Shown here: one piece after another, positions 29,025 to 31,920 of the stretch
How positions within the stretch are numbered: the first letter of the stretch is position 1
Layout of the letters: each line of letters begins with the position of its first letter
From: Bacteroidia bacterium
GTDB lineage: Bacteria > Bacteroidota > Bacteroidia > CAIKAF01
Direction: 5' to 3'
DNA length: 64,000 bases
Assembly (NCBI GenBank): GCA_016742095.1
Contig: JACVCJ010000002.1
Span: forward strand, 62,001-126,000
Translations under genes and position numbers: made by a program
Notes under the pieces: model-generated
Told to the model about the DNA's origin: nothing
Database searches by the model: none
Seen by the model: the letters and a program-made list of their open reading frames with translations, nothing else

Positions 29025-29456
29025 TTAACGAAGGGTACGGCGTATCATCTGTGTATTGTTGTAATACACCTCTACCTTGATGGGCGCAGTGCCCGGTGTG
29101 TACAGGATGCTGTACTGGGTAGAACCGTCGGCCAGGGAAACCTTGCGGTATTCCAGGTTGGTGCCGAAACGCTGATGTGCGTCCGCAAGTACGGCGGCAG
29201 GAAATTCTGAAGAAGGAACTACCTTTTCTTCCTGGATAAATGTACCGGTTGCATCGAATACCGAATACAGGGTTGCATTTCCGTTGTGTTGTGCGATCGA
29301 TTCGCCGTTCTCGTACGAAGTATAGGCTGCCGCATTGACATTATACTTGCTCGAGAAAGCTGATTTCACAACAGCAGGCGCATCATTTTCGGTAACCTGG
29401 GCCGAAACGGCAGATACCGATGCCAGGAATAGAGCTGAAAAGAAGAATCGTTTCAT
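29025..29456 (-). CDS. Small secreted PepSY-like protein
   Basis: A 143-residue protein with a signal peptide (1-20) and a single beta-rich domain. The pattern A-P-A-V-V-K-S-A-F-S-S-K-Y near the N-terminus, repeated later as P-A-A-V-L-A-D-A-H-Q-R-F, is that of PepSY-like (beta-lactamase-inhibitor-like) periplasmic proteins common in Bacteroidota. The molecular role is unknown. It is a single gene, 44 bases downstream of the acyl-CoA reductase stop on the same strand. Confidence 0.65.
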   Translation of the reverse strand: MKRFFFSALFLASVSAVSAQVTENDAPAVVKSAFSSKYNVNAAAYTSYENGESIAQHNGNATLYSVFDATGTFIQEEKVVPSSEFPAAVLADAHQRFGTNLEYRKVSLADGSTQYSILYTPGTAPIKVEVYYNNTQMIRRTLR

Positions 29457-29500
29457 CTTTGTAGTTAATTTATTAGGCTAAAATAGTTAAGTTTTCGTAA

Positions 29501-30559
29501 TTATCCAATATTTGTTAAAAATTCTAAAACATTTTTCCCGTCCGGCCAGTCAGAGAGTTCCGGTTTCTGTGTATTTCCGAAGGATACGCCGCGCTCAAAA
29601 AATTTCCCGTCTGCACTTGCCACACACTGAATCTCTTCCGCATGGACCTGCAGCCATTCTTCCGCAGCCGACGTGTTTTCATATTCCCGGTAATGCACCA
29701 CGGATACCGGGGCGCCCAGACGGTCCATAGGCCGCAGCATAAACGCCTCGTTATCGAAGACCGGGTCGCGGTTCAGCAGGTAAATGCTCTTGTAATAGTC
29801 GTAATTATTGGAGTATTTGGTATGATCGCGCAGGGTTTTCAGGTGTTCGCCCGCCGCCATAAAAGGCATCCAGTCGTAGCCCTGCGGGGCCAGCAAAAAG
29901 GTCACGTTACGGCAGCCCATGCCAAAATAACTGAACATATCTTCCTGCAGCAGGCGCAGGTCTTCCGCGCTTTCATTACCGCTGAGTACCGCGCAGGATG
30001 TACGGTTCTTACGGATGAGCGAAGGGTATTTGCCAAAATAATATTCAAAATACCGGGCCGTATTGTTACTGCCCGTAGCGATGGCCGCTTCAAAATCTTT
30101 CAGTACGGCCGCTTCAAAAACGATCTGTCCCTTCAGTGCGGGCAGGTAATTACAGAGCCGCTCCGCCAGGAAAGACAGCCAGTACGGGTCTGACGAGGAG
30201 CATTTGGCGTAATAGATATGTCCGCTCAGCAGCACGGCCATCATATCGGCAAAACCCACGGCCGGAATATTTCCTGCGGGCACCACCGCCACTTTTTTGG
30301 GAGCCGGCGCCCGGTATCCCGCCTCGTATTCCTGCAGGTAACGCTCAGAGGCATCCGACAGGATCAGCTGTACGATGCCTTCCAGGGCCAGGAGCTGATT
30401 TGCGTACGTAAACCAGCCGTTCGCCCGCTCGCTCCGGTACATCACCTGTGCATATGCTTCGTCCGTCTGCCCGCGTTCTGCATGGTTTTTCAGTACGCCT
30501 GCGATTTCCGCGCCCAGCTGTGCGAATGCCTTTTTTCTTTCTATAAATGTCGTTTGCAT
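29501..30559 (-). CDS. Acyl-CoA reductase, LuxC family
   Basis: A 352-residue aldehyde-dehydrogenase-like protein of the LuxC acyl-CoA reductase family, predicted to reduce acyl-CoA or acyl-enzyme to a fatty aldehyde. Recognisable parts are V-P-A-G-N-I-P-A-V-G-F (about 93-103), the segment with the likely catalytic cysteine N-R-T-S-C-A-V-L-S-G-N (about 186-196), and F-G-M-G-C-R-N-V-T-F-L. There is no lux operon here; in Bacteroidota this gene usually stands beside a 4Fe-4S ferredoxin, as it does here in divergent orientation. Physiological substrate unknown. Confidence 0.85.
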   Translation of the reverse strand: MQTTFIERKKAFAQLGAEIAGVLKNHAERGQTDEAYAQVMYRSERANGWFTYANQLLALEGIVQLILSDASERYLQEYEAGYRAPAPKKVAVVPAGNIPAVGFADMMAVLLSGHIYYAKCSSSDPYWLSFLAERLCNYLPALKGQIVFEAAVLKDFEAAIATGSNNTARYFEYYFGKYPSLIRKNRTSCAVLSGNESAEDLRLLQEDMFSYFGMGCRNVTFLLAPQGYDWMPFMAAGEHLKTLRDHTKYSNNYDYYKSIYLLNRDPVFDNEAFMLRPMDRLGAPVSVVHYREYENTSAAEEWLQVHAEEIQCVASADGKFFERGVSFGNTQKPELSDWPDGKNVLEFLTNIG

Positions 30560-30583
30560 AAACTCAATATCGAAGCGATGTAT

Positions 30584-30599
30584 TATTTTTGCAAAATTA
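30584..30599. promoter_or_regulatory. Overlapping symmetric divergent promoter, luxC-like / ferredoxin
   Basis: TATTTTTGCAAAATTA contains an exact TAnnTTTG box on the plus strand (30584-30591, towards ferredoxin) and another on the minus strand (30599 to 30592, towards the reductase), abutting tail to tail. A further inverted repeat, GCGGT (30606-30610) and ACCGC (30618-30622), follows on the ferredoxin side. Each predicted transcription start falls in the other box. Confidence 0.5.
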
Positions 30600-30636
30600 T
30601 TAAAAGCGGTAATGCAAACCGCCTAATTGAGAAAGT

Positions 30637-30984
30637 ATGGCAATTATTATCACGGACGAGTGTATCAACTGCGGGGCATGTGAGCCCGAATGCCCGAACA
30701 ATGCCATTTACGAAGGTGGAGTGGAATGGAAAATGAGCGAAGGCACTTCGGTAAGCGGCCTGTATACCCTGGCCGACGGCACCGCCGTAAACGCCGATGA
30801 CTCGCAGAAGCCCGTTAACATGGACGTATACTACATTGTACCCGACAAATGTACGGAATGCGTAGGCTTTCATGACGAGCCCCAGTGTGCCGCCGTATGC
30901 CCGGTGGACTGCTGTGTGGACGATCCGGACATCCGCGAGACACAGGACGAACTGATCAGCAAAAAAGACCGCCTCCACTTATAA
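30637..30984 (+). CDS. 4Fe-4S dicluster ferredoxin
   Basis: A 115-residue ferredoxin. The first cluster is C-x2-C-x2-C-x3-C-P in [12 protein letters not shown] near the N-terminus. The second is in [20 protein letters not shown], with the longer spacing seen in Allochromatium-type ferredoxins. It carries electrons at low potential in the cytosol. Its divergent partner is the LuxC-like reductase, and the shared promoter suggests joint control. Partner enzymes cannot be named from the sequence. Confidence 0.9.
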
Positions 30985-31044
30985 AATCTTCTTAAAAATG
31001 GACGTACAGGGTAACATTTGCCCCTGGTTCCCGTTTCCCTAAGT

Positions 31045-31920
31045 ATGAAAAGACACGGAATCCTCAGTATTTTCCTGGGCCTGGCCCTGCACGGCTTTGC
31101 CCAGACGGCCGCGGAAACCGAAGCCGAATGGAACCGCTTTGCCCTGCGCCTGCTGGACCCGGCCTGTTCCGACCAGCTAAAAAAAGCCTCTGCCGACAGT
31201 CTGCTGAGCGATATGGGCGACCGCCTGTCGCATAAAGAGATATTTACCTATGCGTTTCCGGCCCTTAAGAACATAAGCCGTATCGAAGCTCCGGACAATA
31301 CCTTCCGAATCTTTACCTTTATGGTGCAGTATGCCGACGGCCATCATGAGAACTTTGGCTTTACGCAGTTCGAAGACAAAAAGAACGACCTTATTCACGT
31401 GGCTCAGCTCACGGACAATAAGCCCGAATTTAAGCTTGCCGAGACCAAAAACTACGGTAAAAAACAGTGGTACGGGGCCGTGTATTATACCATTCTGCCC
31501 AAACCCATCGGTAAAAAAGGCCAGTACGTGTTGCTGGGCCGCGATCACAATAACCGCCTCACTACGCGCAAAGTAATGGAAGTGATCAGCTTCAGCCGCA
31601 TCGGGGAACCGCAGTTCGGTGCGCCCATTTTTAAGACCGAGAAACGGATGTTTAACCGCATTGTGCTCGAATACAATGCCAAAGCCTCCGTTTCGGTACG
31701 TTTCCAGAAAGACAAGAACTGGATCCTGTTCGATTACGTGGCCCCTTCCTCACAGCAATACAACGGCCAGTTCCAGTATTACGGCCCTACCGGCGAATAC
31801 GATGCCTTCCGTATAGAAAAAAATTACCTGCAGATCGTGCGCGGCGCCGATGCCCGTAACGACAGTGAGAACAAGGGCAATACCAGTAAAACGCCGCAAC
31901 GCGGACTGAAGCCGGATTAA
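31045..31920 (+). CDS. Secreted protein of unknown function
   Basis: A 291-residue protein. The ATG at 31045 begins a signal peptide (M-K-R-H-G-I-L-S-I-F-L-G-L-A, cut near A-Q-T). I do not recognise the family. The body is mostly beta-rich, with a basic and aromatic middle part (for example N-Y-G-K-K-Q-W-Y-G-A-V-Y-Y) and a polar C-terminal tail with K-T-P-Q-R. Probably periplasmic or surface-associated. It follows the ferredoxin gene by 60 bases and converges on the gene at 31982, with a GTCCG-type repeat between the stops in place of a standard terminator. Confidence 0.75.
   Translation: MKRHGILSIFLGLALHGFAQTAAETEAEWNRFALRLLDPACSDQLKKASADSLLSDMGDRLSHKEIFTYAFPALKNISRIEAPDNTFRIFTFMVQYADGHHENFGFTQFEDKKNDLIHVAQLTDNKPEFKLAETKNYGKKQWYGAVYYTILPKPIGKKGQYVLLGRDHNNRLTTRKVMEVISFSRIGEPQFGAPIFKTEKRMFNRIVLEYNAKASVSVRFQKDKNWILFDYVAPSSQQYNGQFQYYGPTGEYDAFRIEKNYLQIVRGADARNDSENKGNTSKTPQRGLKPD

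Follow-up and report, generated by a model that had tools for sequence, protein, structure and literature searches.

Facing -7 boxes between divergent reductase and ferredoxin genes: a probable compact bidirectional promoter recurrent in Bacteroidota

Background

Bidirectional promoters have been described in E. coli and Salmonella. In the parts of the reports considered here, E. coli starts lie mostly 18 bp apart, with further cases at 10 and 23 bp, and polymerases cannot occupy both orientations simultaneously (PMC12825309); for Salmonella, the Grainger group defines such promoters by divergent starts 7-25 bp apart (PMC10268837). The commonest form in these species, according to the same sections, is built on a single near-symmetric -10 element common to both directions, the starts being separated by 18 bp, and on the chromosome bidirectional promoters are most often found between divergent genes. 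In the five E. coli promoters tested in the portion of the report available, basal activity was too low for competition (PMC12825309).

The -7 box of Bacteroidota, TAnnTTTG, is not near-symmetric, unlike the -10 element of the described bidirectional promoters, so that Bacteroidota would have to reach the same end differently. In the sections of the start-mapping papers considered, the box is located at -12 to -5 in F. psychrophilum (PMC9723704), and a TTTG at -33 is present in B. fragilis and not identifiable in F. johnsoniae (PMC7366714); the word 'bidirectional' is absent from the main text of both papers. A literature search covering titles, abstract openings and term counts, with most subscription papers outside its range, recognised no work on such promoters in Bacteroidota.

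The locus and its predicted promoters

The window analysed is a stretch of 64,000 nucleotides from the genome of a Bacteroidia bacterium. It contains a LuxC-like reductase gene on the - strand and a ferredoxin gene on the + strand, which form a divergent pair separated by 77 bp (Table 1). A reductase match was detected in 74 of 80 genomes of the class (56 families), and all 16 genomes of the family, which also represent the order, have the two genes next to each other in divergent orientation.

Within the gap, the sequence TATTTTTGCAAAATTA, at 30584-30599, consists of an exact TAnnTTTG box on each strand, the two abutting where TTTG meets CAAA, as the first-pass annotation had stated. The same annotation placed the start of each promoter inside the box of the other, which is borne out at the level of prediction: when +1 is set five bases past each box, both predicted starts are A, they lie 9 bp apart, and each falls within the opposite box.

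Table 1. Genes, predicted promoter elements and neighbouring repeats at the reductase-ferredoxin locus (window coordinates)
Feature	Position	Strand	Remarks
LuxC-like acyl-CoA reductase gene	29501..30559	-	PF05893, 21.6 bits, just above the cut-off of 21
YfhL-type 4Fe-4S dicluster ferredoxin gene	30637..30984	+	NF033683, 97.8 bits, cut-off 86; Fer4_7
-7 box TATTTTTG, predicted ferredoxin promoter	30584..30591	+	exact TAnnTTTG
-7 box TAATTTTG, predicted reductase promoter	30592..30599	-	exact TAnnTTTG
Predicted ferredoxin start, A, 41 nt leader	30596	+	inferred from -12 to -5 box placement; inside - box
Predicted reductase start, A on - strand, 28 nt leader	30587	-	inferred likewise; inside + box
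Nearest TTTG usable as reductase -33	30615..30618	-	spacer 15 bp; in relatives any -33 is weakly supported
GCGGT(7)ACCGC inverted repeat	30606..30622	.	judged chance or incidental

Single TAnnTTTG boxes occur in the window at chance level (47 found, 40 expected), while the 16-base facing pair is found once, against 0.01 expected in shuffles. In the whole genome the exact pair occurs at 5 sites and its reversed control at none. All five are intergenic, as judged by eye on ORF lists; the flanking genes are divergent at four of them and tandem at the fifth. Besides the copy at this locus, three exact palindromes are located at G000:C46:58308-58323, C22:6088-6103 and C30:147972-147987; the C46 copy is situated 3.7 kb ahead of the window, and its neighbours appear by eye to be genes for a phosphoesterase and a small lipoprotein.

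As far as the E. coli and Salmonella systems are described in the parts considered, the pair resembles them in its housekeeping boxes, close together on opposite strands, which would admit polymerase in either orientation but not in both, in its placement between divergent genes, and in a predicted start spacing close to the 10 bp class of E. coli. It differs from the 18 bp class of E. coli in having two complete, asymmetric boxes with the predicted starts inside; a near-symmetric -10 element common to both directions, on which that main class is built, was not found, the boxes abutting without a shared base. With the sigma-ABfr and sigma-A promoters of Bacteroidota the locus shares the exact TAnnTTTG, here on both strands, and a predicted distance from start to ATG of 28 nt on one side and 41 nt on the other.

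Upstream elements and neighbouring repeats

Unlike the B. fragilis sigma-ABfr promoter, as presented in the available part of its description (PMC7366714), the locus offers no TTTG whose position clearly corresponds to -33. The spacing of 15 bp first noted for the reductase -33 was found as claimed, and on the ferredoxin side the nearest upstream TTTG lies at 30553-30556, with a spacer of 27 bp. In the relatives no clear -33 element was found on either side: a TTG at -22 is present in 8 of 61 + promoters, and a TTTG at -21 in 6 of 29 - promoters.

The GCGGT/ACCGC inverted repeat, which had been regarded as adjoining the boxes, is not supported as a part of the arrangement. A repeat of this kind turned up in 10 of 100 shuffled windows, folding of the leader was on a par with that of its shuffles (z -0.04), and the repeat was rejected as a component of the device. 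None like it was seen by eye in the nearest relative, L010, and no Rfam match was detected in 29400-31100 at E values up to 1. The boxes are also flanked by GTTTGCAT and its inverse ATGCAAAC, at 30552-30559 and 30612-30619, one copy being located at the reductase start codon and the other within the inverted repeat.

Recurrence at orthologous loci

Two sets of loci were compared. The first was composed of the 16 family genomes and of 80 loci found through the ferredoxin (the best 80 of 586), 96 in all. Seven of these were dropped (three duplicates, three near a contig edge and one without a recognised ferredoxin), and the remaining 89 were split into 66 loci with a divergent reductase and 23 without, two groups whose lineage make-up differs. 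The pattern TAnnTTTG-N(0-8)-CAAAnnTA was detected in 29 of the 66 loci with a divergent reductase and in 0 of the 23 without it, in this set composed of the family genomes and the best 80 of 586. In the 130 bp preceding the ferredoxin, a + box is present in 61/66 and 15/23 loci, respectively, and among the loci having it the dependence of the facing pair on the reductase gives a p of 2.6e-4, a value to be read with the different lineage make-up of the groups. A - box is found anywhere in the 130 bp in 45 of the 66. The spacing d between the facing boxes is 0 in nine loci, 2 in two, 3 in three, 4 in four, 5 in eight, 6 in two and 8 in one.

The second set was drawn evenly from the class, by taking one locus from each of the 74 reductase-positive genomes (80 genomes, 56 families). 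Of these loci, 59 have a recognised divergent ferredoxin; in the other 15, one of which ends at a contig edge, none was recognised. The exact facing pair at spacings of 0-8 is present in 27 of the 59, against 0.1 when these 110-base stretches are shuffled; when the 6 of 74 loci overlapping the first set are left out, the count is 24 of 53. Every spacing from 0 to 8 occurs, with peaks at 5 (nine loci) and 6 (six). A + box is found in 53 and a - box in 44 of the 59 loci, and a pair at d=0 also occurs in 2 of the 15 loci without a recognised divergent ferredoxin.

At other spacings, exact pairs were found in 6 of the 59 loci at 9-17 and in 2 at 18-35, and in none at -1 to -35. Back-to-back pairs at -36 or beyond are present in 8 of 59 loci, of which L273 and L307 also have a pair at 0-8; L327 is a further case. 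With one mismatch allowed, 40 of 59 loci have a pair at 0-8, with 17 at 9-17, 15 at -24 to -16 and 1.5 in shuffles; given this high background, one-mismatch boxes were rejected as evidence.

The proposed check, whether other Bacteroidota have the arrangement at this gene pair, gave a positive answer in both sets. The exact palindrome is not supported as the conserved object: the spacing runs from 0 to 8, and the sequences compared point to a looser arrangement, of which the strict palindrome represents one state. Within the family it is found at this locus in 4 of 16 genomes, and several of the others have a + box with a near-match facing box.

The exact pair at 0-8 is absent from 37 of the 66 loci of the first set and 32 of the 59 of the class sample, and some clades lack it altogether. 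A Ferruginibacter-like clade (L043, L055, L059, L060, L077, L102) has no exact TAnnTTTG close to the ferredoxin. Three of its members (L043, L059, L077) have TAAATTGC at that place, similar to the SM5 box of F. psychrophilum, TAnnTTGY, and CAAAATTA nearer to the ferredoxin, the two being directly adjoining only in L059. In three loci of genus g3 (L020, L023, L024) a one-mismatch - box, GATATTTG, predicts a start located about 3 nt before the reductase ATG; the reductase mRNA of these relatives is perhaps nearly leaderless.

Control comparisons

Dinucleotide-preserving local shuffles of the first set gave 0.63 expected loci, against 29 of 61 observed. A gene-context control was based on a 2.06 Mb sample, with genes called by a custom script. 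Of 37 divergent ferredoxin promoters, 21 have a facing box at 0-8 behind the gene-nearest box, against 1 of 138 tandem-gene promoters (p 4e-16). For other divergent genes the count is 6 of 131 promoters, against the same 1 of 138 (p 0.06); the six include the ferredoxin locus L058, whose start was mis-called, and both sides of the mazG gap, which account for two.

When reductase-side positions were swapped among loci, a mean of 5.8 pairs at 0-8 was obtained, with a maximum of 13 in 5000 swaps, against 27 of 38 observed; for ambiguous boxes or starts, the pair nearest to a spacing of 4 and the start codon beyond the - box were taken, a choice which leans towards the observed value. Compactness alone was rejected as an explanation, as the swaps never reach the observed number. 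The gaps vary from 47 to 178 bp while the box spacing is held at 0-8, the change being taken up by the reductase-side leader.

Orientation was compared at spacings of -100 to -21 and of 0 to 35, after removing L058 by hand. Pairs are back-to-back in 5 cases and facing in 25 at the reductase-ferredoxin locus, against 27 and 10 in other divergent gaps (p 6e-6). The facing trait is clustered on the reductase tree, with 11 changes against 21 in shuffles; the tree was built by a quick method from one protein at 65 of the 66 loci, and the counts do not distinguish gain from loss.

Occurrence at other sites

In other divergent gaps, pairs were found in 4 of 168 (5 of 169 with the mis-called L058), while the swaps have a mean of 2.1 and are as high in 105 of 2000. 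Tandem gaps contain 2 pairs in 918 and convergent gaps 1 in 213, in the sample of about 2 Mb. There is little excess beyond the swap null, and these counts do not establish a strong rule that would hold for every divergent gap in a genome.

Exact patterns were also counted in the 80 class genomes, in every context, against reversed controls: 173 versus 63 at d=0, 158 versus 84 at d=5 and 123 versus 99 at d=13, an excess of 2.75, 1.88 and 1.24, which falls with the spacing. The contrast in gene context is weak: among the matches listed, from which sites were hand-picked and placed by a crude ORF caller, 17/40, 10/20 and 7/20 lie between divergent genes, and 8/40, 2/20 and 7/20 inside genes, at d=0, 5 and 13, respectively.

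Upstream of mazG, facing -7 boxes are present in 9 of the 16 family genomes (L005:2779, that is G000:C63:33778, and loci within L161-L176). Their spacing is 0 in the genome of the window and 4, 4, 5, 5, 8, 8, 8 and 8 in the relatives. This recurrence suggests that the arrangement is not unique to the reductase-ferredoxin locus.

Discussion

We interpret the locus as a compact bidirectional promoter in which two separate housekeeping -7 boxes, of the sigma-A type, would stand face to face (probability about 0.8). The facing pair looks like a real shared promoter with predicted starts, rather than a coincidence, because the arrangement recurs across many Bacteroidota families. Recurrence at the locus (29/66, 27/59) equally supports the original suggestion that the opposed boxes are two promoters. 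A polymerase bound at the - box would start the reductase mRNA near 30587. With the boxes outside and the predicted starts inside, the AT-rich stretch to be melted would be common to both orientations, and a polymerase in either one would cover the start of the other, one binding at a time. Simultaneous open complexes look impossible on this geometry, since both orientations would use the same melted stretch, and mutual exclusion of the two promoters, on which the same geometry bears, is sterically plausible.

Under the -12 to -5 placement, spacings up to 8 are those at which the two RNAs would not overlap, and the fit of the exact pairs to this range (27 loci, versus 6 at 9-17) is suggestive. 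The predicted start spacing in relatives equals 9 minus d, that is 1-9 bp, and it would therefore often fall below the 7-25 bp definition.

A palindrome as clean as TANNTTTGCAAANNTA, the form taken at d=0, with five copies in the genome, all intergenic according to the ORF lists, might instead be the operator of a dimeric transcription factor and no promoter pair at all. The half-site is, however, exactly the described sigma-A box, and its distance takes any value from 0 to 8 at orthologous loci (0, 2-6 and 8 in the first set), which a fixed dimer would not tolerate; this variation makes a fixed dimer operator very improbable and two promoters likely. It is also improbable that only the ferredoxin promoter is real and that CAAAnnTA is a by-product of an A-rich initial transcribed sequence. 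The + box is indeed kept more widely than the - box (61/66, against 45/66 anywhere in 130 bp and 29 facing), and the base that follows the + box is most often C, in 16 of 24 interlocked sequences. A facing box is nevertheless lacking at all 23 loci without a divergent reductase and stands behind one only of the 138 tandem-gene boxes; its dependence on the divergent reductase tells against a simple sequence preference in the stretch that follows the ferredoxin box.

What the overlap of two real promoters would signify is a separate matter. We give even odds to the explanation that they overlap merely as a result of a short gap and of inheritance, with no regulatory role. This explanation is favoured by the clustering of the trait on the reductase tree, as expected from inheritance, by the at most weak excess in other divergent gaps, and by the E. 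coli bidirectional promoters, which, in the part of the report considered, hardly compete at basal level (PMC12825309). It is harder to reconcile with a spacing that stays at 0-8 over gaps of 47 to 178 bp, with an orientation reversed relative to other divergent gaps, and with a second locus, mazG, where 9 of 16 family genomes show spacings of 0, 4, 5 or 8. The stronger proposal is rather doubtful: Bacteroidota may possess a distinct class of bidirectional promoters, with boxes outside, starts nose to nose at 1-9 bp and spacings at which the RNAs just miss overlapping, kept at the reductase-ferredoxin locus across much of the class since either-or polymerase binding would set the balance of the products.

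Conclusions

The promoter pair is ordinary in its parts and unusual in the tightness of its interlock and in the breadth of its occurrence. Judged from sequence comparison, it would belong to a known kind, the bidirectional promoters, and what appears new is the interlocked construction from whole boxes, conserved at one locus. The reductase-ferredoxin locus suggests how Bacteroidota might build bidirectional promoters, and offers a recurrent, compact test case for the question of whether start-site collision is used for regulation.
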